Shown piece after piece: positions 2,127-20,516 of a stretch of DNA of 27,723 nucleotides. The translations under genes were made by a program, and so were the position numbers. Every line of letters starts with the position of its first letter. Positions within the stretch are counted from its first letter, which is position 1. The notes under the pieces were generated by a model. It searched no databases, was not told where the DNA came from, and saw only the letters and a list, made by a program, of their open reading frames with translations. This DNA comes from a virus, in the IMG/VR virus record IMGVR_UViG_3300008107_000519, positions 1 through 27,723 of that record; one strand, written 5' to 3'.

Positions 2127-3380
2127 ATGAATCAACGTACTATTGAAGACTATCTTGAATTATTAACCGGACACAAAACCGGTGGCACGTTTCAGCTCGA
2201 AGCAAAAGATGTAACCATCTTGCAAAGCATAGCTAAACAAGTGTACAAAAGTATCCCCCTTACAGACAGACAATATGATCTTCTCAAAGAAAAACTTGTG
2301 CTTTATAAAGATCAGTTTATAACACAGGGATTTACTGATTTAGAGTTAGCACTAGTGACACTACGCATGCCGCTTCGAATAATAGATAGAACTAAAACGA
2401 TAACTGTTATAGAAGATCTAGAAAGAAAAAAATCATTTAACAGTATTGATACTAAAAAGATTCCCTGGATAAAAATTAGATTTCCATTTGCGAAAAAAAC
2501 TATAGTGTTAGTTGAAGAAATTTCTTCAGTTGCTGGCGCTGATTATTATCATGAAAAAGGATCGCACGAACACTATTTTAGATGCACTGAAAAAAATCTG
2601 TTTAATGTAGTAAACCAATTTAAAGATAAAAACTTTGATATAGATCCGCAACTTCTAGAACAATACGAAAAATTAGTAATCATAGATAGCAATAAAGAAA
2701 ATTATATTCCAGGAGTTTATAATTTTAAATTAAAAAATCTTGACAAACGATCAGTTGAATATATGATTAGTTCTGTAGGAGAACCCAGTACAGATAATCT
2801 TTTAATTTATGTAGACAGAAAAGAACAATATGGTCTTAAATATTTTGACCAACAAGACGTAGACAGTAGCTTAAACAACGTAACTTATCTAGCAAAAAAA
2901 ATTGCTCTGCGTACTAAATTTCAAGTGTTCATTAGTAATAAAAAATACAATATAAACCAAATAGTAGAAGCTGTATTAGATCTATACAGATTTCCGTTGT
3001 TAGTAATATTGCCTACAGGTTGTCAGCTAGAACAGCTTCAAAAAATACACAGAGCGTTTGACGGTGTAGTGCCTTCCGATCTTTCTAGCGTAGTTTTTAG
3101 AATGGAAAATAACGAAGAAGGAAGAGAATTCAATAATTATATTAAACGTAACAATTTAAATAATATAGTTGACAATAAAACTAAAATAGTTTATACTGAT
3201 ACTACAAAACTCCCTAAGCCGTTAATCAGATTGAACTGGCGTCCTAGTGCTGTGTTGCTTCTAGACAGTTTTAGACCAAATGGTAAAGTGTTAAATTTTA
3301 TTGAATCTAGTGATTTAATAATTCATTATGATGAAACGCCTAGTAGATTTATGATTAGGGATATGGATATTATTGAATGA
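2127..3380 (+). CDS. Conserved-looking phage protein of unknown function, upstream of UvsW
   Basis: A 417-residue soluble protein with no signal peptide or membrane segment. I do not recognise a domain. The central and C-terminal parts alternate hydrophobic strands and helices (for example LLIYVDRKEQYGL and LLVILPTGCQ), suggesting an alpha/beta fold, but no Walker or other catalytic motif is complete. It is the first gene after a perfect promoter, has no Shine-Dalgarno site and is likely read from a leaderless message. The stop overlaps the UvsW-like helicase start (ATGA at 3377), so the two are co-translated and may work together in recombination or replication restart; that is inference from position only. 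Confidence 0.8.
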   Translation: MNQRTIEDYLELLTGHKTGGTFQLEAKDVTILQSIAKQVYKSIPLTDRQYDLLKEKLVLYKDQFITQGFTDLELALVTLRMPLRIIDRTKTITVIEDLERKKSFNSIDTKKIPWIKIRFPFAKKTIVLVEEISSVAGADYYHEKGSHEHYFRCTEKNLFNVVNQFKDKNFDIDPQLLEQYEKLVIIDSNKENYIPGVYNFKLKNLDKRSVEYMISSVGEPSTDNLLIYVDRKEQYGLKYFDQQDVDSSLNNVTYLAKKIALRTKFQVFISNKKYNINQIVEAVLDLYRFPLLVILPTGCQLEQLQKIHRAFDGVVPSDLSSVVFRMENNEEGREFNNYIKRNNLNNIVDNKTKIVYTDTTKLPKPLIRLNWRPSAVLLLDSFRPNGKVLNFIESSDLIIHYDETPSRFMIRDMDIIE

Positions 3381-4840
3381 CAACTTGTAAATTAATTATC
3401 GAAGATGAAGTAAATTTAAAAATAGAAGGCTTATCCGTTGAAATACGTAGAAAGTTAGCTAATGCTTTAAAATTCGATGTACCCTATGCTAGATATATGC
3501 CGCAATATAAGTTAGGCAGATGGGACGGCAAAGTTGCGTTCTTTGGTATAGGCGGTACTGGATACGTTAATCATCTAGAAACTATATTAGAAATATTGAA
3601 TAACAGCGGCGTTGAAATTGCCCACATTGAAGACCTAAGACAAACTATAGCACTTAATTTTGAACCAGTAACTGAAAATTATTGGGCCGATCAAAATGTG
3701 TGCTGGCCAGTAGGTCATCCTGCCGCAGGTCAACCAATAGTTTTAAGAGACTATCAAGTAGAAGCAATTAACAGTTTTCTTGCCAATCCGCAGAGTTTGC
3801 AACAGATTGCAACAGGTGCAGGCAAAACTATTACTACAGCAACATTAAGTCACTTGGTTGAACCTTATGGACGTAGTTTAGTAATTGTACCTAACAAGAG
3901 TCTTGTAACACAAACAGAAGAAGACTATAAGAACTGCGGTCTTAATGTTGGGGTATACTTTGGTGATAGAAAAGAATTAGGCAAGACACATACTATATGC
4001 ACATGGCAAAGTCTAAACATATTAGATAAGAAATTTAAAGACGGCAGTGGCGTTCTAGGACTAGCAGAATTCTTAGAAGGTGTAAGCTGTGTAATTATTG
4101 ACGAAGTTCATCAAGCTAAAGCAGAAGTTCTTAAAAACTTACTTACACGCAATCTACGTAATGCACCTATTCGCTGGGGATTAACCGGCACAGTGCCTAA
4201 AGAAAAATTTGAATTTGAATCACTGCATGCTAGTATTGGCCCAGTGATAGGGCAGATTACAGCAAAAGAACTACAAGACAAAGGCGTACTAGCACAGTGC
4301 CATGTGAATATTTGTCAACTTATAGATTTACCAGAGTTTCGCGATTATCAAAGCGAGCTCAAATATCTAGTCTCAGACAAAGACAGAATAGCTTATATTG
4401 CCAAACTATGTACTAAAATTAAAGACAGTGGCAATACGCTGATCCTAGTTGATAGAATTGATGCAGGAAAACAATTAGTAGAACTAATACCTAATAGTGT
4501 TTTTATCAGTGGCGGAGTAAAATTAAATGACAGGAAAGAACATTATGACGAAATTAAAGAATCTACTGATAAGGTTATTGTGGCGACTTATGGTGTGGCC
4601 GCTGTGGGTATTAATATTCCTCGTATTTTTAATTTGGTTCTTTTGGAGCCCGGAAAGAGCTTTGTTAGAGTTATCCAAAGTATTGGACGAGGTGTGCGAA
4701 AAGCTGAAGACAAAGACTTCGTACAAATCTGGGACATCACATCGAGCTGCAAGTATGCGAAGAAACACTTGACAGAAAGAAAAAAGTTTTATAAAGAAGC
4801 CCAATACCCATTTACTATAGAAAAAATTGACTGGAACTAA
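3377..4840 (+). CDS. uvsW: UvsW-like superfamily 2 DNA helicase
   Basis: A 487-residue helicase. Motif I (ATGAGKT, about residues 145-151), motif II (IIDEVH, about 240-245), motif III (WGLTGT) and motif VI (QSIGRGVR, about 434-441) are all visible, with an N-terminal extension of about 110 residues before DYQVEAI. This matches T4 UvsW (about 500 residues), a RecG-like enzyme that unwinds branched DNA and R-loops, drives branch migration and shifts T4 from origin-dependent to recombination-dependent replication. It is translationally coupled to the unknown 2127 gene. No key motif is missing. The alternative, a generic type III/DEAD-like phage helicase, is less likely given the length and the T4-type neighbourhood. 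Confidence 0.9.
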   Translation: MTTCKLIIEDEVNLKIEGLSVEIRRKLANALKFDVPYARYMPQYKLGRWDGKVAFFGIGGTGYVNHLETILEILNNSGVEIAHIEDLRQTIALNFEPVTENYWADQNVCWPVGHPAAGQPIVLRDYQVEAINSFLANPQSLQQIATGAGKTITTATLSHLVEPYGRSLVIVPNKSLVTQTEEDYKNCGLNVGVYFGDRKELGKTHTICTWQSLNILDKKFKDGSGVLGLAEFLEGVSCVIIDEVHQAKAEVLKNLLTRNLRNAPIRWGLTGTVPKEKFEFESLHASIGPVIGQITAKELQDKGVLAQCHVNICQLIDLPEFRDYQSELKYLVSDKDRIAYIAKLCTKIKDSGNTLILVDRIDAGKQLVELIPNSVFISGGVKLNDRKEHYDEIKESTDKVIVATYGVAAVGINIPRIFNLVLLEPGKSFVRVIQSIGRGVRKAEDKDFVQIWDITSSCKYAKKHLTERKKFYKEAQYPFTIEKIDWN

Positions 4841-6016: not shown

Positions 6017-6478
6017 ATGAGTGATAAATTACCATTAAAAGATATACTAGCAGCCATTGACATGAACGGCAAATCCGTTTGGGATGAGCTGTCTCCAGAA
6101 GAACGTAAACAGATTAGTTTTTGGCTGCTGAATAGATATGTTAGCGCAGTTAAAGGACCTAGAGAAAAACAAGAACTTGCTGTGTTTAAAACTAATGAGT
6201 ATTATAATAAAAACTTTAGTGTGCTAGGCACCAAGCATCCTAAACTGCAATGGCAGCTGATGTGTGTAGCAGGTAACACTGGTAAAATTGAGTACCATGA
6301 ATGGATTGGCTTTAAACAAAAAGGTCAAAGCAATTCTAAAAGTGTTAAGCTCTTACAACAAATTTATCCTAACATGAAAACAGATGAGGTAGAATTACTT
6401 GCTAGAATATCTACAAAAAAAGAACTCCTTGCCCTTGCAGACGAATACGGGTTGGATAAAAAAGATGTCGAACTCTAA
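6017..6478 (+). CDS. Clamp-loader small subunit, gp62-like (DNA polymerase accessory)
   Basis: A 153-residue protein. The segments WDELSPEERKQISFWLLNRY, KQELAVFKTNEYYNKN and HPKLQWQLMC resemble the small clamp-loader subunit of T4-like marine phages, which with gp44 loads the gp45 sliding clamp on DNA. T4 gp62 is 187 residues, so this is a short form, as often seen in cyanophage-type relatives. It opens a six-gene operon in which every neighbour overlaps the next. The assignment rests on remembered family similarity, not a search; the alternative is an unnamed phage protein. Confidence 0.6.
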   Translation: MSDKLPLKDILAAIDMNGKSVWDELSPEERKQISFWLLNRYVSAVKGPREKQELAVFKTNEYYNKNFSVLGTKHPKLQWQLMCVAGNTGKIEYHEWIGFKQKGQSNSKSVKLLQQIYPNMKTDEVELLARISTKKELLALADEYGLDKKDVEL

Positions 6479-7154
6479 ACCCTATGTATGCGAGTACTGT
6501 GGAACAGGATATACCAAAGAAAAAACTTTGGCTGTACACATGTGTGAGCAAAAACGTAGGCATCTACAGAGATCTGAAAAAAGAGTACAGCTAGGTTTTT
6601 ATGCGTTTAATCAATTTTACAAACTTAGTGCTGGTTCTAAAAAAGACAAGACCTATGAAGAGTTTTGTAAAAGTTCATACTATAATGCGTTTGTAAAATT
6701 CGGTAGTTTTCTAAGTAATGTAAAACCACTGTATCCTGAAAAGTATGTTAATTACATTGTAAAGAGTGGAGTTAGACTAGACGACTGGTGTAAAGAATCT
6801 TTATATGAAGCATATGCAATTGATTTAATAATGAAAGAAGGCGTAGAGACTGCGCTAGAAAGATCAATTACCACAATGATGGAATGGGCAGACGAAAACC
6901 CTCCTGCACCTTGGAATCACTACTTTCAACATGTAGGGTTAAATCGAGCAGTATGGCACATCAAAGATGGAAAGATTAGTCCTTGGCTCATATTGAATTC
7001 CAAGACTGGTAAGGACATGCTAAGTAAATTTAACGATGAACAGTTATCACTAGTATACCATATTATGAGTCCAGAACATTGGGCTATGCGTTTTAGAAAA
7101 AGTCCAGCAGATGTTGAGCTTGTCAAAGAAATAACGAAAGAAAGTAATCTATGA
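6465..7154 (+). CDS. C2H2-type zinc-finger phage protein
   Basis: A 229-residue protein started at ATG 6465; an earlier ATG at 6399 would lie deep inside the clamp-loader gene. The N-terminus reads YVCEYCGTGYTKEKTLAVHM, with Cys9, Cys12 and His25 plus Cys27/His33 as candidate zinc ligands, followed by KRRH. The rest is helical and Trp-rich (WAMRFRK near the end) with no catalytic motif. Proteins of this layout occur in marine T4-like phages next to replication genes; DNA or RNA binding is a fair guess. It overlaps both neighbours (14 and 4 bases). Confidence 0.7.
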   Translation: MSNSKPYVCEYCGTGYTKEKTLAVHMCEQKRRHLQRSEKRVQLGFYAFNQFYKLSAGSKKDKTYEEFCKSSYYNAFVKFGSFLSNVKPLYPEKYVNYIVKSGVRLDDWCKESLYEAYAIDLIMKEGVETALERSITTMMEWADENPPAPWNHYFQHVGLNRAVWHIKDGKISPWLILNSKTGKDMLSKFNDEQLSLVYHIMSPEHWAMRFRKSPADVELVKEITKESNL

Positions 7155-7576
7155 AAATATTAATTTTTGGTTTGCCAGGCAGCGGTAAAAGCACCCTTGC
7201 AGAACCATTCGCACAATTAATTGGCGGTATATGGCTCAATGCCGATGCTGTTCGAACAGAATACGACGATTGGGATTTTAGTCCCGAAGGCCGTATGCGG
7301 CAAGCTATGCGAATGAAATTTTTAGCAGACGGTGTAGTCAAGGCGGGCAAGATTGCTGTAGCAGATTTTGTATGTCCTACTGAGAACGCTCGCAAAGAAT
7401 TCAATGCAGACTTTACTGTATGGATGGACACTATTGAAAAGGGTAGATATGAAGATACTAATAAGATGTTTGAAAAACCTAATCATTGCAACTATCACGT
7501 TAGCAAATGGTTTACAGACACACACCTACAGCTAATGGAAGTTGTAAAAGCGTACATGAAAAATGGAAACAAATAA
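7151..7576 (+). CDS. P-loop kinase, adenylylsulfate-kinase-like
   Basis: A 141-residue P-loop protein with GLPGSGKST at residues 7-15, then WLNADAVR and VADFVCPT, which resemble adenylylsulfate (APS) kinase CysC and related small kinases. APS kinase phosphorylates APS to PAPS. This protein is shorter than CysC (about 200 residues), so the substrate may differ. It is the first of three overlapping genes (kinase, DUF2061 membrane protein, HxGH nucleotidyltransferase) that look like one functional cassette. The kinase fold is safe; the sulfate role is inference. Confidence 0.75.
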   Translation: MKILIFGLPGSGKSTLAEPFAQLIGGIWLNADAVRTEYDDWDFSPEGRMRQAMRMKFLADGVVKAGKIAVADFVCPTENARKEFNADFTVWMDTIEKGRYEDTNKMFEKPNHCNYHVSKWFTDTHLQLMEVVKAYMKNGNK

Positions 7577-7769
7577 AAGAAGTATTGTTAAGACTGTTAC
7601 ATGGCGAATAACAGGATCAACTGCAACATTTTTAATAGCATACTTACTGACAGGTAATTTAGCAATTTCAGGTGTAATTGGAATGACACAGATGGTTATT
7701 AATACAATACTGTATTATATGCACGAAAGAATATGGAACTTAATTAAATGGGAAAGAAATAATGTTTGA
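7563..7769 (+). CDS. DUF2061 small membrane protein
   Basis: A 68-residue protein. The N-terminal RSIVKTVTWRITGSTATFLI motif followed by two hydrophobic segments (about residues 20-35 and 38-55) is characteristic of DUF2061, a family of small inner-membrane proteins of unknown function. From memory, in bacteria DUF2061 genes often lie near sulfate-activation genes, which fits the kinase upstream and the nucleotidyltransferase downstream. It overlaps the kinase by 14 bases and the next gene by 8. Confidence 0.85.
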   Translation: METNKRSIVKTVTWRITGSTATFLIAYLLTGNLAISGVIGMTQMVINTILYYMHERIWNLIKWERNNV

Positions 7770-8175
7770 TTCAAAAAAACCTACTACACAGATGCTAGGC
7801 CGTTGGCAACCTTGGCATGCCGGTCATACAGGACTGTTTAAGAAATGTCTATTAGAAACTGGACAGGTCTGCATTATGGTCCGAGACGTCGGCGGTATTG
7901 TTGGCCAGGATGCGGGACAAAGCAGAACCACAACCAAGCAAGACGACAATCCATTTGATTTTCAAACAGTAAAAAGCAATATTATTATTGGGCTAAATGA
8001 AGCAGGCTTTACCTACGGAGAAGAATATATTATAATGTTAGTTCCTAACATTGTAGATATTAGTTATGGCCGAGGCGTTGGTTATACATTTACTCAGCAC
8101 GATCTTGGAGAAGACATCCATAACATTAGTGCTACACAGATTAGAGCACAACTTAGGGCTGAAGGTAAACTCTGA
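7762..8175 (+). CDS. HxGH nucleotidyltransferase (cytidylyl/adenylyltransferase-like)
   Basis: A 137-residue protein with GRWQPWHAGH at residues 13-22, matching the (H/T)xGH nucleotide-binding signature, and ISATQIR at about 122-128, matching the ISxTxIR signature of the same superfamily. The family includes NMN adenylyltransferase, cytidylyltransferases and ATP sulfurylase; all join a nucleotide to a small phosphate- or sulfate-bearing substrate. The 137-residue length indicates a minimal catalytic domain. The position after a kinase and DUF2061 suggests a linked pathway. The stop TGA overlaps the next ATG by one base. The substrate is not determinable from sequence. Confidence 0.8.
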   Translation: MFDSKKPTTQMLGRWQPWHAGHTGLFKKCLLETGQVCIMVRDVGGIVGQDAGQSRTTTKQDDNPFDFQTVKSNIIIGLNEAGFTYGEEYIIMLVPNIVDISYGRGVGYTFTQHDLGEDIHNISATQIRAQLRAEGKL

Positions 8176-8741
8176 TGGATATTGACATAGACTTTGCTGA
8201 CAGAACTTTAATTTTGGATAAATTAAAACATCGTGTTGCTAAACTTGATTCAAACAAGAAACACAACACAGGAGTCTATGTTACTGAAATTCCACACAAT
8301 CCAATTGATAATCTATCTACGATAGATTACAAAGAGGCAGAAGAACGTGGATATTTTAAACTTGATTTTCTAAACGTAAGCATATATAAAAGTATTCGTG
8401 ATGAAGAACATTTAGTTGCTTTAATGAAAAAGGAGCCATTATGGAATTTATTGCAGGAAGACGAATTCGTAAATCTATTATTTCATTTAGCAGGCCATGG
8501 GGAAATTCTGAGGAAGACCTGCCCTACTTCACTGGAACAATTAGCTGCCGTCCTAGCTATGATACGCCCAGCGAAACGATATCTGATTGGGAAATCGTGG
8601 ACGACAATTATGTCGGAGATTTGGAAGAAGCCGGAGAATGATGAATACTACTTTAAGAAGGCCCATGCAGTAAGTTATGCAATGGCTGTTGTTGTACACA
8701 TGAATTTACTGTGTGAGCAGCTTAACGCTTCGGACGCCTAA
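8175..8741 (+). CDS. DnaE-derived protein (fragmentary polymerase III alpha-like)
   Basis: A 188-residue protein. The start MDIDIDFADR resembles the DnaE palm motif PDFDVDF, where two catalytic aspartates lie. The middle (HGEILRKTCPTSLEQLAAVLAMIRPA) resembles the DnaE stretch around residues that bind the incoming strand, and FKKAHAVSYAMAV resembles the DnaE motif FNKSHAxAYA. DnaE is over 1100 residues, so this keeps three short motifs and drops PHP, fingers, tau-binding and most of the palm. It may be a structural or regulatory remnant, not a polymerase. It ends by overlapping a convergent gene by 20 bases. The relationship is by eye and needs a profile search. Confidence 0.55.
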   Translation: MDIDIDFADRTLILDKLKHRVAKLDSNKKHNTGVYVTEIPHNPIDNLSTIDYKEAEERGYFKLDFLNVSIYKSIRDEEHLVALMKKEPLWNLLQEDEFVNLLFHLAGHGEILRKTCPTSLEQLAAVLAMIRPAKRYLIGKSWTTIMSEIWKKPENDEYYFKKAHAVSYAMAVVVHMNLLCEQLNASDA

Positions 8742-9093
8742 CTAACTGTACGTTTTTGCGCTTTACTCGCTTTAGTGTTAGATTATTAAGATTAACACAG
8801 GGTCCTATTGTTACCCTAACATCTTTAGTATTCATAGTCATTAATGAATAACGAAACGCATCCATTTCCTGTCTGAGAAATATATTAATAGGAATCATAC
8901 GATTTGATTCCCACCACCATGCTTCGCCTAATTCAATAAACTGTTGTTTTTCTTCAACAGAACGAATTGACGTGTAAACGTACATAGACGTTACATACTG
9001 GTCTTGATTAATTATAATACCAACGTATTCGTTGCCGCCGTAATTAACAACGCTTATAAATGGAAAGTTTTCTTGTATATCTTTAGTTAGCAT
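8722..9093 (-). CDS. Phage protein of unknown function, convergent with the DnaE-like gene
   Basis: A 123-residue basic protein ending in TLKRVKRKNVQLVRRPKR, so nucleic-acid or membrane-surface contact is plausible. The remainder is beta-strand-rich with WWWESNRMIPINIFLR. No known domain is recognised. It reads against its neighbours: its tail overlaps the 8175 gene by 20 bases, and its start lies eight bases behind the late promoter of the 9112 virion gene. A weak GAG precedes the ATG. I see no clear promoter for it. Confidence 0.65.
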   Translation of the reverse strand: MLTKDIQENFPFISVVNYGGNEYVGIIINQDQYVTSMYVYTSIRSVEEKQQFIELGEAWWWESNRMIPINIFLRQEMDAFRYSLMTMNTKDVRVTIGPCVNLNNLTLKRVKRKNVQLVRRPKR

Positions 9094-9111: not shown

Positions 9112-9921
9112 ATGCAGTTTACCCCAAGATATTTAGTCAATAATAGAATCAATATCATAGCCAATGTGGACCCCACTCGGCTAGAGAGGGCTTTCGTTAC
9201 GGAGTATAGACCAGTGTATCAAAGACAAATACAAGTATACAAAGGCATAGATAATGTCTTACAATTTAAGTTGCTTAATGCTGAGCAAAAGCCCGTCACA
9301 AGTATTGAAGAACTTACTCCTAAGTTTGTAGCATTTGACGAAAACAAAAATATGATAATAGAAAGAGACTGCATTGTTCTACAAGAAACCGATAGTACAG
9401 TTATTACTAATAAGGGATTATTTACAGTCACTATAACTGAAAACGATCTACTAAATGTTAAAGATCAATTTTTAAACTACAGTATCTATCTAGTTGACAA
9501 CACTGGTGCAAAATCGTTAACATATGCTAACGAACATTTTGGTAATAGCAGTATTATGAAAATAAGTTCAGATGCATTTCCAGCACCTGCAAACAGTGAA
9601 GAGTTGCTAGTTTGGCACATAGAAAATAACAATTATTGGGTTACTGACTCATCTGATGCACAACCTACAATAAATGGTAACGAAGCACTACACACAGCAG
9701 TAGTATACTCAACCGGATATGTAGGCACTGTTACGGTGCAAGCAACGCTGGATAATCAGATTGAAGTTGGAACGTATTGGGCAGATATTGCAACATTGAC
9801 GTTTGACGGAACTGAGTCAGAGCCTGTACCAATAAACTTTAACGGTGTGTTTAGTTACGTCCGACTTAAAGCATCTACAAATCCTACAGGAAAAATTACC
9901 AAAGTATTAATTCGCAACTAA
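9112..9921 (+). CDS. Virion structural protein (baseplate or fibre type)
   Basis: A 269-residue protein. The N-terminal TPRYLVNNRINIIANV and YRPVYQRQIQVYKGIDNVL resemble a conserved virion protein of cyanophage-type T4-like viruses, and most of the chain is beta-strand with Thr, Asn and Val, as in baseplate wedge or fibre components. The two halves look like separate beta domains, with a boundary near the Pro/Ala-rich segment around residue 155. It has its own T4-type late promoter and no Shine-Dalgarno site. The exact virion position is unknown. Confidence 0.65.
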   Translation: MQFTPRYLVNNRINIIANVDPTRLERAFVTEYRPVYQRQIQVYKGIDNVLQFKLLNAEQKPVTSIEELTPKFVAFDENKNMIIERDCIVLQETDSTVITNKGLFTVTITENDLLNVKDQFLNYSIYLVDNTGAKSLTYANEHFGNSSIMKISSDAFPAPANSEELLVWHIENNNYWVTDSSDAQPTINGNEALHTAVVYSTGYVGTVTVQATLDNQIEVGTYWADIATLTFDGTESEPVPINFNGVFSYVRLKASTNPTGKITKVLIRN

Positions 9922-9950
9922 TTGACTTCTACGACTAGATCTGCTATAAT
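9922..9950 (+). promoter_or_regulatory. Sigma-70 promoter for the primase operon
   Basis: TTGACT at 9922-9927, a 17-base spacer and TATAAT at 9945-9950. Five bases (ATAGT) separate the -10 from the primase ATG at 9956, so again there is no room for a ribosome-binding site. The sequence around it resembles the 6005-6017 promoter (TATAATATAGT). Confidence 0.85.
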
Positions 9951-9955
9951 ATAGT

Positions 9956-10951
9956 ATGAGTAAAGTCGCTGAAGTTGTAACACAATTCTTGCCGCCTAAG
10001 CGTAAGCATACGCCTAGTGGTTGGACGTCATTCAACGCACCTTGTTGTCATCATAATGGACAAGGTGCTGACACTCGACAGCGTGGCGGTTTAATTGCAA
10101 ATCCAGATGGCGGAGTAAGCTATCATTGTTTTAATTGCGGATTCAAAGCGTCTTGGCAACCAGGTCGCAATGTAAGCAAAGGCCTTCGACGGTTATTAGT
10201 TTGGTTAGGCGTACCCGATGATACCATTAACAAATTAGCTATTGCAGTTATGCAAGAAAATGAAGGCATAAATGTTCAACAAAAATTAGTTAACATACCG
10301 GTATTTCATGCAGTACCTTTGCCTGACGATGCTGTTAATATTGCAGATTATCTTACTGCATCTAATTCAGTAAGTAAACATTTAACAGATGTAGTTGCAT
10401 ATATGCAGAGCCGAAATCTATATCTTGAAGACTACAAGTTTTATTGGAGTCCTAGTATGGGTTATAGAGATCGATTGATAGTACCGTTCTATTACGAAGA
10501 TGCTATTGTAGGTTGGACAGCTAGAACTATTCAACCTAACAAAAATCCAAAATATTTAAGTGAGCAACAGCCTGGCTATGTATTCAACTTAGATAGCCAA
10601 GGATACGACAAAGCATTTTGTATCCTAACAGAAGGCCCTATAGATGCTATCCACATTGACGGCATTGCACTATTGGGCAGTGAAATCAAAGATCAACAGG
10701 CACTGTTAATTAACAGATTAAATAAAGATATAATAGTTCTCCCAGACCGAGATCAGGCAGGTAGCAAATTAGTAGAACAAGCGATCGAATACGGTTGGGG
10801 AGTAAGCATGCCGGAGTGGAAGCCGGGTATTAAAGATGTGAATGATGCTGTGCTGGAATATGGAAAACTATATACTCTATACAGCATTGTGACCGCAGCA
10901 GAAACATCTCCATTAAAAATTAGACTGAGAGCAAAAAAATGGTTTTATTAA
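9956..10951 (+). CDS. DNA primase, gp61-like
   Basis: A 331-residue protein, close to T4 gp61 (342 residues). An N-terminal zinc-binding region has CCHH near residues 29-32 and HCFNC near 56-60. The TOPRIM catalytic part follows with EGPIDA near 226 (the conserved Glu) and LPDRDQAG near 261 (the DxD). The enzyme makes the RNA primers for lagging-strand synthesis and partners the gp41-type helicase encoded two genes on. A perfect-type promoter places its ATG at the expected transcription start. The stop lies inside the start region of a 36-residue peptide gene. Confidence 0.88.
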   Translation: MSKVAEVVTQFLPPKRKHTPSGWTSFNAPCCHHNGQGADTRQRGGLIANPDGGVSYHCFNCGFKASWQPGRNVSKGLRRLLVWLGVPDDTINKLAIAVMQENEGINVQQKLVNIPVFHAVPLPDDAVNIADYLTASNSVSKHLTDVVAYMQSRNLYLEDYKFYWSPSMGYRDRLIVPFYYEDAIVGWTARTIQPNKNPKYLSEQQPGYVFNLDSQGYDKAFCILTEGPIDAIHIDGIALLGSEIKDQQALLINRLNKDIIVLPDRDQAGSKLVEQAIEYGWGVSMPEWKPGIKDVNDAVLEYGKLYTLYSIVTAAETSPLKIRLRAKKWFY

Positions 10952-11049
10952 AAATTATTTGGCACTTTATAATGTTGCCTTATCGAAAATTACAAACACG
11001 TAAAAGATTAAAAGAACTACGTAAACGGGATCCGTTCATATACAAATGA
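10939..11049 (+). CDS. 36-residue membrane/basic micropeptide between primase and carbamoyltransferase
   Basis: The ATG at 10939 lies within the last codons of the primase, and the TGA at 11047-11049 overlaps the next ATG (ATGA), giving a fully coupled chain. The peptide has a hydrophobic N-terminus (VLLKIIWHFIMLPY) and a strongly basic C-terminus (KLQTRKRLKELRKRDPFIYK), the layout of a single-pass membrane-anchored peptide with a cytoplasmic charged tail. The ending RKRDPFIY recalls small phage peptides I have seen. The position and coupling make it likely real; the function is unknown. Confidence 0.65.
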   Translation: MVLLKIIWHFIMLPYRKLQTRKRLKELRKRDPFIYK

Positions 11050-12530
11050 TTACATGGGGTATAAGTGCTAACAGTCACGATGCAGCTTTGGCTGTGTTCA
11101 ATGACAACAATCTGGTGTTTGCTAGTCAAGCGGAACGATACAGCGGAATTAAAAATGATCCGCATCTCAATCACGAATTAATTAATGCAGCAAAAAAATA
11201 TGGACTGCCTGATAATGTTGTTTGGTATGAGCGTCCTTTAAAGAAAACATTTAGGCAATTCTTTGCCGGACAAGGATGGAATTATGCAGAAAATAATATT
11301 AAAAAGTATCTTAGTAATTTTGGGATTAACGTTCCTATCAGCTATGTTGATCACCATCATAGTCATGCTGCCGCTGGCTATTATACTAGCGGCTTTAGGG
11401 ACGCTACTGTGGTATGTGTGGACAGCATTGGAGAATGGGAAACCCTCACAGTATGGAAGGCAAAGGGCAGGGTTCTTAAGAAAGTTCTAACGCAGGGGTA
11501 TCCGCATTCAGTAGGACTGTGGTATTCGGCAATGACTCAAAGAATAGGACTTAAACCCAATGAAGAAGAATATATTCTCATGGGTATGGCTGCTTACGGT
11601 GACTCAAATAGATTCTACAACGAAGTACGCAGAATGGTCGTTATTAATTTTGAGGACGAACTTTTTCCTAAAGAGGACGAGTATCCCTTTGTACACTTTA
11701 CACAAAACTTTCACAAAGGCTGTAAAGAATGGCGTCCTGAACTGACTACAGAACAGGACATGTATGACATAGCAGCCGCAACGCAGAGAGTCTATGAAGA
11801 AGTGTTAGATAATATACTACGCTGGGCCGCCGCAAGAACTCCTAGCAAGAATCTAGTTCTAATGGGCGGATGTGCTCTAAATTGTGCAGCCAATCATTTA
11901 GCCTACAATTACTTTGACAATGTTTGGATCATGCCTAATCCGGGCGATGCAGGCAGCGCAGTGGGCGCAGTATTAGCTAAACAAAACAATTGGATAGCTT
12001 GGCCTGGACCTTATCTAGGTTATGAAATAGAAGGAGAATACCCTGTTAAAAAACTTATTACAGAACTTAAAGCAACCGGCATTGTTGGTGTTGCAAATGG
12101 CAAGGCCGAGTATGGCCCTCGTGCTCTTGGTAACCGCAGTTTGTTTGCTGACCCTCGTGGCGCAGACATTAAAGATAGAGTAAACGCTATCAAGCAAAGA
12201 CAAAAGTTTAGACCGTTTGCACCTGTGATATTAGCAGAACATGCCCATGAATATTTTGACGGGCCTGTAGGGCCTTACATGCAATTCACAGCACGTTGCA
12301 AGCGTCCAGATCTGTATCCTGCTATTGTGCATGCAGACGGCACCAGTAGAGTACAAACGGTAACTCAGCAAGACAATCCGGGACTTAGATCTTTACTAGA
12401 AGAATGGTACAAACTCACAGGCTGTCCAATGTTATTGAACACCAGTCTCAATATCAAAGGCAAGCCAATGGTTAATAATGAAAATGACGCAAAAGAATTT
12501 GCTCTACACTACGGAGTGAGTGTATACTAA
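11046..12530 (+). CDS. NodU/CmcH-type O-carbamoyltransferase
   Basis: A 494-residue enzyme. The N-terminal kinase-like domain has GISANSHDAALAVF and the metal-binding VDHHHSHAAAGY (His cluster about 102-107), then GYPHSVGLWYSAMT and LMGMAAYG. The second part has LMGGCALNCAANH, NPGDAGSAVGAV and YGPRALGNRS (about 356-365), the C-terminal YrdC-like carbamoyl-transfer region. The family makes carbamoyl-adenylate from carbamoyl phosphate and ATP and passes the carbamoyl group to a hydroxyl (TobZ, NodU). Phage copies may act on a glycan or a hypermodified base; the substrate is unknown. It sits between primase and helicase. Confidence 0.9.
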   Translation: MITWGISANSHDAALAVFNDNNLVFASQAERYSGIKNDPHLNHELINAAKKYGLPDNVVWYERPLKKTFRQFFAGQGWNYAENNIKKYLSNFGINVPISYVDHHHSHAAAGYYTSGFRDATVVCVDSIGEWETLTVWKAKGRVLKKVLTQGYPHSVGLWYSAMTQRIGLKPNEEEYILMGMAAYGDSNRFYNEVRRMVVINFEDELFPKEDEYPFVHFTQNFHKGCKEWRPELTTEQDMYDIAAATQRVYEEVLDNILRWAAARTPSKNLVLMGGCALNCAANHLAYNYFDNVWIMPNPGDAGSAVGAVLAKQNNWIAWPGPYLGYEIEGEYPVKKLITELKATGIVGVANGKAEYGPRALGNRSLFADPRGADIKDRVNAIKQRQKFRPFAPVILAEHAHEYFDGPVGPYMQFTARCKRPDLYPAIVHADGTSRVQTVTQQDNPGLRSLLEEWYKLTGCPMLLNTSLNIKGKPMVNNENDAKEFALHYGVSVY

Positions 12531-12534
12531 TACA

Positions 12535-13953
12535 ATGACTAGACAAAATACAGACTACAGTTACGATATACAAAAAGTATATCTAGAAATGATGATGATG
12601 GATGCTGAGAGCTTTATCCGTTGTCAAACAGTTTTTAATCCAGAATTTTTTGATAGAAGGTTGCAGTCCGCGGCTAAGTTTTTGAACGACTATGTTACAG
12701 AACACAACGCCATGCCAACCTTTGACATGATCAATGCGGCAGCGAAAACAGATCTGCACCATCCAGGTGAACTCCGTGAGGAACACTATGATTGGTTACT
12801 CGTAGAGTTCGAAACCTTTAGCAGACACAAAGCACTAGAAGCCGCAATCCTTAAAAGCGCAGACCTACTTGAAAAGGGCGAATATGGTCCTGTAGAAGAT
12901 CTAGTTAAGAAGGCTGTACAGATTGGACTTCAGAAAGATCTGGGCACTGACTACTTTGCTGATCCTAGAAGTCGACTAGAGGCCATCAAAGACAAGAACG
13001 GACAAGTGAGCACAGGCTGGGCCAGTCTTGACAAGAAACTGTTTGGCGGATTCAACAGAGGTGAGTTGAATATCTTTGCAGGCGGTTCGGGTGCAGGTAA
13101 GAGTTTGTTCTTGGCTAACCTTGGTGTTAACTGGGCGCAGGCAGGACTCAATGTGCTGTACTTAACATTCGAACTTTCAGAGAACTTGGTCAGTATGCGT
13201 GTGGACAGTATGATCACAGGCGTTACTACTCGAGACATCTTTAAGAACATTGACGATGTTGAAATGAAGGTTAAGATGATTGGTAAGAAGAGCGGTGCGT
13301 TTCAAGTCAAGTACATGCCATCAGGCAAGACACCCAACGACATACGTTCATATGTTAAAGAGTATGAGATCAAGACCAATCGCAGAATTGACGTACTACT
13401 AATTGACTATTTGGACTTGCTGATGCCCAATGGTGTTAAGGTAAGTGCAGAGAACTTGTTTATCAAGGACAAGTATGTGTCAGAAGAACTGCGCAACTTG
13501 GCTATGGAACTGCGCACAGTATTTGTAACAGCATCGCAGTTGAATCGTAGTGCCGTTGAAGAAATTGAATTTGATCACAGCATGATCAGCGGTGGCTTAT
13601 CTAAGATTCAAACAGCAGACAATGTGATTGGTATCTTTACAAGTCGTGCTATGCGTGAACGTGGACGTTATCAGATTCAGCTTATGAAGACACGTTCATC
13701 AAGTGGTGTAGGATCTAAGGTTGATCTAGAGTTTGATGTAGACACACTGCGTATTATAGACTGCGAACAGGATGAGTCTGGATCGCAATCATCAAGCAAT
13801 GGCTCAGCTAGTTCTATTGTGGCTGCACTACAGCGTAAGAGCGCAGGTGTTATTGCTGAAGCACCCGATGAAGGTGTAGCGGCACCAAAAATCAAAGCTG
13901 ATGTAGACTCAACTAAACTGCGACAGTTCTTAAATAACCTAGGCTCGGAATGA
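12535..13953 (+). CDS. Replicative DNA helicase, gp41/DnaB-like
   Basis: A 472-residue hexameric helicase. Walker A GGSGAGKS is at about residues 183-190 and Walker B LLIDYLDLL at about 288-296, followed by TASQLNR and a late Arg-rich region (FTSRAMRERGRYQIQLMKTRSSS) that fits the arginine finger and motif H4 of the RecA-like DnaB fold. T4 gp41 is 475 residues, so this is full length. I prefer ATG 12535; a GTG at 12520 is in frame but only three bases from GGAG. The last 15 bases overlap a convergent methyltransferase. The protein drives the replication fork with the gp61-like primase. Confidence 0.9.
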   Translation: MTRQNTDYSYDIQKVYLEMMMMDAESFIRCQTVFNPEFFDRRLQSAAKFLNDYVTEHNAMPTFDMINAAAKTDLHHPGELREEHYDWLLVEFETFSRHKALEAAILKSADLLEKGEYGPVEDLVKKAVQIGLQKDLGTDYFADPRSRLEAIKDKNGQVSTGWASLDKKLFGGFNRGELNIFAGGSGAGKSLFLANLGVNWAQAGLNVLYLTFELSENLVSMRVDSMITGVTTRDIFKNIDDVEMKVKMIGKKSGAFQVKYMPSGKTPNDIRSYVKEYEIKTNRRIDVLLIDYLDLLMPNGVKVSAENLFIKDKYVSEELRNLAMELRTVFVTASQLNRSAVEEIEFDHSMISGGLSKIQTADNVIGIFTSRAMRERGRYQIQLMKTRSSSGVGSKVDLEFDVDTLRIIDCEQDESGSQSSSNGSASSIVAALQRKSAGVIAEAPDEGVAAPKIKADVDSTKLRQFLNNLGSE

Positions 13954-19745: not shown

Positions 19746-20516
19746 TTATGCTACGGCTTTGAGGCGGATTACGAAGCCCGTGTAGTCCTTCTTAGCACGA
19801 CCCTTGGCCTTAAGACCCAGCACCGCACCTTTGGGATCTAGGAAGCGCAGGTCTGTTTCATCTGCATTGAACACAGGGCGACCCTTGTACTCTGCGGGGA
19901 TCTCATCGAACACTGCCGCAACATTCATGCCCTGCTCAATTGCTCGCTCTACATCTGCATCGTTGCCATCAGCGGCACTGAATGTCAAGTGGTAGTTGGG
20001 GATGTCTGCAACCTTGCGTCCCAAGACCTTGGTGTAGTCATAGAACTGAAGTGTACTGAAGGCATCAAAGATGTTCTTGCCATGCATTGGAACTGGATAC
20101 TTCTCCCAGCTCAGATCGCTGGTACCATTGAGGCGGAACACTGGCTTCAATCCCTTGCGGCGAGCGAAGTTCACAGCCTTCATGATGTCAGTGACCAAGT
20201 CCTGCATGAAGCCTTCGCGGTTCTCAAAGAAGTATTTGGTCTTGCGGATGCGAGCCTGCTGGATGACATTGGTGTTCTCGCCTTTGCGGAACATACCACC
20301 GCGCCCTGCGGTGTTAAGACAAGCCTGGGTACAACCGGCAGTCCGTTTAGGGCGCCCTGCGGTGTTAAGACAAGCCTGGGTACAACCGGCAGTCCGTTTA
20401 GGGCAGACTTCACGTCCACTAAGGTCTGCGGGTGCCAAGTGTAGGATGAAAGATAGATAGCCATATTTGGTGCCCTTTTGGATCTTTGGATTTGCGGTAC
20501 TTAATAGTTTGAACAT
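19746..20516 (-). CDS. GP88-like phage protein with an internal 17-residue duplication
   Basis: 256 residues. The N-terminal STANPKIQKGTKYGYLSFIL, the Cys-rich block CPKRTAGCTQACLNTAGR and the central KPVFRLNGTSDLSWEK match the family I know as phage gene 88 (GP88), whose molecular function is not established. The Cys spacing C-x6-C-x3-C suggests metal or iron-sulfur binding. In this copy the block PKRTAGCTQACLNTAGR occurs twice in tandem from an exact 51-bp DNA duplication, adding two cysteines. GAGGG lies at normal spacing before the ATG. It is driven by the promoter at 20550-20578, with three DnaA boxes upstream. Confidence 0.75.
   Translation of the reverse strand: MFKLLSTANPKIQKGTKYGYLSFILHLAPADLSGREVCPKRTAGCTQACLNTAGRPKRTAGCTQACLNTAGRGGMFRKGENTNVIQQARIRKTKYFFENREGFMQDLVTDIMKAVNFARRKGLKPVFRLNGTSDLSWEKYPVPMHGKNIFDAFSTLQFYDYTKVLGRKVADIPNYHLTFSAADGNDADVERAIEQGMNVAAVFDEIPAEYKGRPVFNADETDLRFLDPKGAVLGLKAKGRAKKDYTGFVIRLKAVA
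20301..20402. repeat. Exact 51-bp tandem duplication inside the GP88-like gene
   Basis: Positions 20301-20351 are repeated base for base at 20352-20402. The unit is 17 codons, so the reading frame is kept. It could be a real recent duplication or an assembly artefact. Confidence 0.95.

Follow-up and report, generated by a model that had tools for sequence, protein, structure and literature searches.

A putative C-terminal half of a split minimal C-family DNA polymerase in a conserved phage replication neighbourhood

Described split polymerases and the 188-residue protein

The closest described system is a minimal Pol III alpha, specific to phages, which Iyer et al. (2021) reported from jumbo phages of group 2.2. 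It was described as split into an N-terminal NTP-binding protein and a C-terminal metal- and template-binding protein whose genes lie far apart, in genomes that also encode a family-B polymerase, and it was suggested to model ancestral Pol III (PMC7824862). A truncated alpha of 172 aa was also noticed in CBB (PMC5259590) and an alpha subunit in Atu_ph07 (PMC6102473), while the GenBank record of phage fENko-Kae01 notes an HHpred match of the C-terminal half. The account of Iyer et al. is a sequence-based description, and no experimental tests of the split polymerase were found in the open-access literature. The DNA analysed here (the window) is a viral stretch of 27,723 nucleotides, positions 1 to 27,723 of IMG/VR record IMGVR_UViG_3300008107_000519, and one of its ORFs (Table 1) is, judging by its sequence, a further member of this split minimal Pol III. 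It is the C-terminal unit of a family in which NTP binding and metal/template binding are divided between two halves. Compared with the earlier description, the present analysis adds the exact breakpoint, the conservation at residue level, the occurrence in smaller phages and the DnaE-type residue at position D405, as well as a single-origin tree and a neighbouring one-piece polymerase.

The ORF is intact; its ATG overlaps the stop codon of the preceding gene, lying one base inside it, and its 3' end shares 20 bases with a convergent gene. In the PHROG profile search it matched PHROG 11778, annotated 'DNA polymerase', with E 4.7e-64, and phrog_405, the family of full-size phage Pol III, with a weak but significant E of 5e-5. 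Its identity to the counterparts in Phosso, PA5oct, RaK2 and other phages is 33-51%. Single-sequence searches of Pfam and PDB gave no match, and those of Pfam, NCBIfam and PDB together gave none or insignificant ones, so the kinship with DnaE is visible only with profiles or structures. An HMM of 63 relatives found only Pol III alpha chains in the PDB (best E 3e-4), in four collinear blocks, namely MPDIDIDF, the GVY.. region, the KxDFL-to-RP stretch and the FKKAHAxxYA helix, and the profile-profile comparison with 80 bacterial DnaE sequences (HHalign) gave E 7.4e-12. These matches go far beyond chance and make the protein a homologue of bacterial DNA polymerase III alpha.

The AlphaFold2 model of the protein, for which the alignment of the 63 relatives was the input, has a mean pLDDT of 92.8 and a pTM of 0.80, and it shows the palm and fingers fold of a C-family polymerase. 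Foldseek placed 15 C-family chains on top. With VIA-align 2, 183-184 of the 188 residues were aligned with Z up to 9.4 and an rmsd of 3.6-4.3 A; the best 16 rows were all C-family polymerases, and the first unrelated row had Z 3.4. This match is convincing because coverage is high and every top row belongs to one family. The aligned span is 401-784 in E. coli alpha (with 183 residues of the protein aligned), 420-811 in M. tuberculosis DnaE1, 462-841 in T. aquaticus alpha and 972-1358 in PolC, the enzyme of Gram-positive bacteria, whose structure matches no less well than that of DnaE (Z 9.4). Both profiles and structure therefore bear out the initial annotation in taking the protein for a DnaE relative of miniature size; that reading was incomplete, since the protein is not free-standing but one of two complementary halves, the other having a separate gene in these phages.

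The motifs named at the outset, DIDIDF, KxHAxxYA and a central template-contact-like stretch, were all located, the last as a fingers-aligned region at about residues 86-136. In addition, KLDFL at residues 62-66, which the first reading had not singled out, bears the third palm aspartate. The catalytic aspartates of E. coli alpha are D401, D403 and D555 (PMC3919608), and all three are present as D2, D4 and D64, while H164 corresponds to H760, which has been proposed to act as the steric gate in E. coli alpha (PMC8485763). Across 104 C-terminal halves (103 at the later positions), the equivalents of D2, D4, D6, K62, D64, R131, K161 and H164 are invariant; they map to E. coli D401, D403, D405, K553, D555, R639, N757 and H760, among which only N757 differs from E. 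coli alpha, as the split family has Lys (K161) there. The DxD motif, the third Asp, K553, D405, the RP motif and H760 are thus conserved as in bacterial DnaE. At the D405 position, Asp occurs in all DnaE groups and Asn in PolC (PMC3919608), and the invariant Asp of the split family is a DnaE-type trait, unlike PolC. Over 59 close pairs the median dN/dS was 0.11, which is purifying selection.

Unlike bacterial DnaE, the split polymerase is divided over two chains and lacks the PHP domain and the thumb region, the greater part of the fingers, and the segments for HhH/clamp binding, OB and tau binding. The split family has no counterpart for E. coli residues of about 424-499 (about 75 residues, in the thumb region), for the greater part of 646-750 or for anything beyond about 767, and the short apparent matches that the global alignment shows outside 279-767 are noise. 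In the thumb region and the GADxLRRAMGKK part of the fingers, the sequence is either largely lost or so divergent that it cannot be aligned. In a C-family polymerase, PHP, palm, thumb and fingers form one polypeptide, and the PHP domain is described as critical for E. coli Pol III, which it serves as a structural scaffold (PMC3666897), whereas the window protein is a chain of 188 aa that begins at the DxD motif.

Table 1. Coordinates of the polymerase gene, its motifs, its neighbours and related loci. Positions are those of the window unless another locus is named; counts refer to loci with enough flanking sequence.
Feature	Position	Strand	Remarks
UvsW-type helicase	3377..4840	+	81/83 loci
phrog_11758, probable clamp-loader small subunit (T4 gp62-like)	6017..6478	+	upstream of the polymerase gene, 99/99 loci
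phrog_11058, possible N-terminal C2H2 zinc finger	6462..7154	+	99/101 loci
Small kinase and nucleotidyltransferase-like ORF	7151-8175		inserted before the polymerase gene, about one locus in six
Putative C-terminal half of split minimal C-family (Pol III alpha-like) DNA polymerase	8175..8741	+	PHROG 11778, 188 aa
DIDIDF, residues 2-7	8178..8195	+	D2, D4 = E. coli D401, D403; D6 = D405
K62-L63-D64	8358..8366	+	D64 = catalytic D555, K62 = K553
I130-R131-P132	8562..8570	+	aligns with fingers ALFRPG motif (R639, P640)
FKKAHAVSYA, residues 160-169	8652..8681	+	H164 = E. coli H760 (proposed steric gate)
phrog_11637	8722..9093	-	convergent, overlaps the end of the polymerase gene, 92/94 loci
Gene with weak match to virion structural family phrog_14467	9112..9921	+	87/90 loci
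DNA primase (T4 gp61-like)	9956..10951	+	81/81 loci
Carbamoyltransferase-like protein	11046-12530		494 aa, inserted between primase and DnaB
DnaB-type replicative helicase (T4 gp41-like)	12520..13953	+	74/77 loci
Protein with tandem internal duplication	19746-20516	-	predicted
Both halves less than 5 kb apart	L202:5543-10576		seen only in L202 and L203
One-piece PHP-less polymerase	L105:1474-3129; L223:7977-9701		L105 is contig IMGVR_UViG_3300023115_000010; also L314-L393
Full-size phage DnaE as two large ORFs	L204:7483-9087, 9941-11464		534 and 507 aa; also L205-L210

The complementary half and the break

The Pol III alpha palm family PF07733 finds a second small ORF, far from the gene of the C-terminal half, in all six named phages, with the match limited to profile positions 19-97. 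The proteins of this N-terminal half (PHROG 11127) are about 165-185 aa long, carry a nucleotide-binding G-x-GRGSS motif and end with EFLN or EFLK. Against the PDB, their profile rose above noise only for Pol III alpha (E. coli 321-392), and HHalign against bacterial DnaE gave E 7e-11. In a structural comparison that barely covers the first 78 residues, the model of the N-terminal half (pLDDT 93.4) aligns with its residues 82-177 to E. coli 279-392 (Z 10-11), to M. tuberculosis 304-412 and to PolC 824-964. The spans of the two halves do not overlap, and the halves therefore tile the palm-fingers core. Moreover, the G and GRGSS residues are invariant in 92 of 92 N-terminal halves and map to E. 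coli G361-S364.

The break lies between the equivalents of FERFLN and PDFDVDF, and in most relatives of the window the C-terminal half begins with M-P-DIDIDF. No natural fusion of the halves occurred among the 223 loci scanned. Cyanobacteria likewise produce Pol III alpha from two genes, with intein halves at the break that rejoin the chains. Unlike that split DnaE, no intein sequence was present in the breakpoint sequences of either phage half, and an intein at the split was rejected, as the C-terminal half starts directly with M(P)DIDIDF and the N-terminal half ends with FLN or FLK.

The C-terminal half was found in 65 phage records and was accompanied by the N-terminal half in 62 of the 63 that could be checked; the lone record without it has 109 kb and is marked unverified, its relatives having about 346-360 kb. 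As many of these records are near-duplicates, the independent cases are fewer, about a dozen lineages. Neither the N-terminal half nor a family-B gene is contained in the window, which is a 27.7-kb fragment, while both halves and a family-B polymerase are present in all five large contigs (180-365 kb) closest to it, including its nearest relative, the 358-kb contig G001, whose C-terminal half is 78% identical. In total, a family-B polymerase was present in 11 of 11 large records tested (these five relatives and the six named phages), and no A-family polymerase was found in six phage records.

In SCTP-2, Phosso and G001 over 100 kb separate the two genes, and in a Vibrio phage, RaK2 and PA5oct the distance is 30-44 kb. 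As well, compared with the jumbo-phage sample of Iyer et al., the halves also occur in 141-kb Alishewanella phages, 11 kb apart in one of them, and on environmental contigs, 4 kb apart in L202. In L202 and L203 the genes between the halves encode a GroES-like protein, a membrane protein and an RFC-type clamp loader.

The replication neighbourhood

The gene for the C-terminal half lies in a conserved order of UvsW, phrog_11279, phrog_11758, phrog_11058, the polymerase half, phrog_11637 on the opposite strand, a virion-like gene, primase and DnaB, and phrog_11279 was found between UvsW and phrog_11758 in 82 of 84 loci with enough flank. The placing of the gene in a phage replication operon, as proposed initially, thus holds, with clamp-loader-like, primase and helicase genes as conserved neighbours. 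Counterparts of the DnaB-type gene in the relatives are annotated DnaB or gp41. The member of phrog_11758 in L202 lies directly 3' of the RFC-type clamp-loader gene and matched phrog_225 (phage clamp loader) with E 5.5e-6, and another member matched PF16790 below the cut-off; from this position and these matches, phrog_11758 is probably a gp62-like clamp-loader subunit. The convergent phrog_11637 is a candidate partner or antisense regulator of the polymerase half.

The neighbourhood in the window also carries two insertions. The small kinase and the nucleotidyltransferase-like ORF before the polymerase gene match two parts of one PHROG, phrog_10255, and a carbamoyltransferase-like protein is encoded between primase and DnaB. 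Further downstream, on the minus strand, a predicted protein with a tandem internal duplication contains PKRTAGCTQACLNTAGR twice.

Proposed activity and further polymerases

The 188-aa protein and its N-terminal counterpart probably form an active two-subunit minimal C-family DNA polymerase. By sequence and predicted structure, the C-terminal half matches the stretch of Pol III alpha that begins at the DxD motif and runs until the O-helix of the fingers ends; the thumb region and much of the fingers are cut out, as is everything beyond the O-helix. The N-terminal half of about 175 aa matches the preceding palm part with GRGSS and stops at FLN/FLK just before DxD. The two proteins would associate so as to share a single palm active site, in which the N-terminal subunit would bind the incoming nucleotide by its triphosphate, whereas both metals, the third aspartate and the steric gate would be on the C-terminal subunit. 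Enzymes of the polymerase-beta fold need both the GS motif, for the triphosphate, and the DxD motif, for the metals. As these motifs sit on different proteins, neither half should be active alone. The heterodimer might extend DNA at the phage replisome alongside the family-B replicase; possible tasks are repair, the filling of gaps or the synthesis of one strand. Ordinary processive synthesis is doubtful, given how little of the thumb region and of the GADxLRRAMGKK part of the fingers is present or can be aligned. As it has no PHP, thumb, clamp-binding or OB parts, other proteins would have to supply clamp binding and processivity. Beyond the homology, complementarity, co-occurrence, invariance and operon position, which are established, we infer that the halves associate and are active.

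The loss of the thumb region and much of the fingers, together with the presence of a dedicated family-B replicase, would also suit a non-catalytic scaffold, in which the halves serve as a palm-like DNA- or nucleotide-binding module of the replisome, e.g., as a sensor of the template or primer terminus. This is unlikely, however, as the strict invariance of the catalytic and steric-gate residues is unnecessary for a mere binder. The initial annotation had suggested competition with the host polymerase. The protein would then be a decoy or inhibitor that binds a partner or the template of host Pol III alpha and thereby blocks the host replicase; in favour of this, it is made by the phage and is similar to the palm and to some of the fingers of that enzyme. 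A decoy does not need three aspartates, the Lys and the steric gate to be invariant across 104 homologues, nor does the C-terminal half have the alpha regions that bind the clamp and tau; moreover, a complementary N-terminal half is retained in the same genomes, the gene is located in a conserved replication operon, and the defence-system search with PADLOC gave no match. The invariance of the catalytic residues in more than 100 homologues and the dN/dS of about 0.11 favour the active two-subunit polymerase over the decoy, which now appears quite improbable, while the other initial suggestion, an assembly piece, would come nearer to the truth as one subunit of a two-part enzyme. The superfamily to which the pol-beta fold belongs includes many non-polymerase nucleotidyltransferases. 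Use of the pol-beta-type site, a fold reported for the split minimal Pol III (PMC7824862), for template-independent addition or protein nucleotidylation would fit the small size and the missing template-guiding parts, but it is the least probable reading: the steric gate, the conservation of the fingers stretch and the replisome genes nearby all speak for DNA synthesis on a template.

If the two-subunit polymerase is active, it would define how little of the bacterial replicase suffices for catalysis and would be a natural split polymerase that could be switched by mixing two small proteins. Whether a group of large phages replicates with two unrelated polymerase families at one fork, a family-B replicase and such a C-family polymerase of about 360 residues, is evenly balanced in our judgement; if so, the active site of the latter would form only when two distantly encoded proteins meet, and no smaller C-family polymerase would be known.

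Some relatives encode, directly or shortly after DnaB, a PHP-less C-family polymerase in one piece, with a length of about 545-575 aa. It is absent after the DnaB gene of the window. Such polymerases occur in at least 80 environmental phage contigs, and a relative of 574 aa occurs in a 484-kb uncultured phage; those of about 545-557 aa match PF07733 with E 1e-42 and PF17657 with E 6e-16. The C-terminal half was also present in 25 of 28 one-piece-polymerase loci with enough upstream sequence; phages of this kind would encode three C-family proteins, in addition to the family-B polymerase in the large relatives. In the tree, which is unrooted, the split clade received a UFBoot value of 96, which supports one origin for the split form, and, having no PolC outgroup, the tree decides for neither an ancestral nor a derived origin. 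The one-piece polymerase was rejected as the parent of the split form, as it has a model of the error-prone (DnaE2) type as its best NCBIfam match and as the tree places it elsewhere, nearer to long-branch cellular DnaE; long branches may have influenced that placement.

Moreover, a full-size phage DnaE occurs as two large ORFs in L204 and similarly in L205-L210. The L204 protein is broken after KxDILGL, which differs from the split between the N- and C-terminal halves, and a 227-aa gene, DnaQ-type exonuclease-like, lies between its ORFs.
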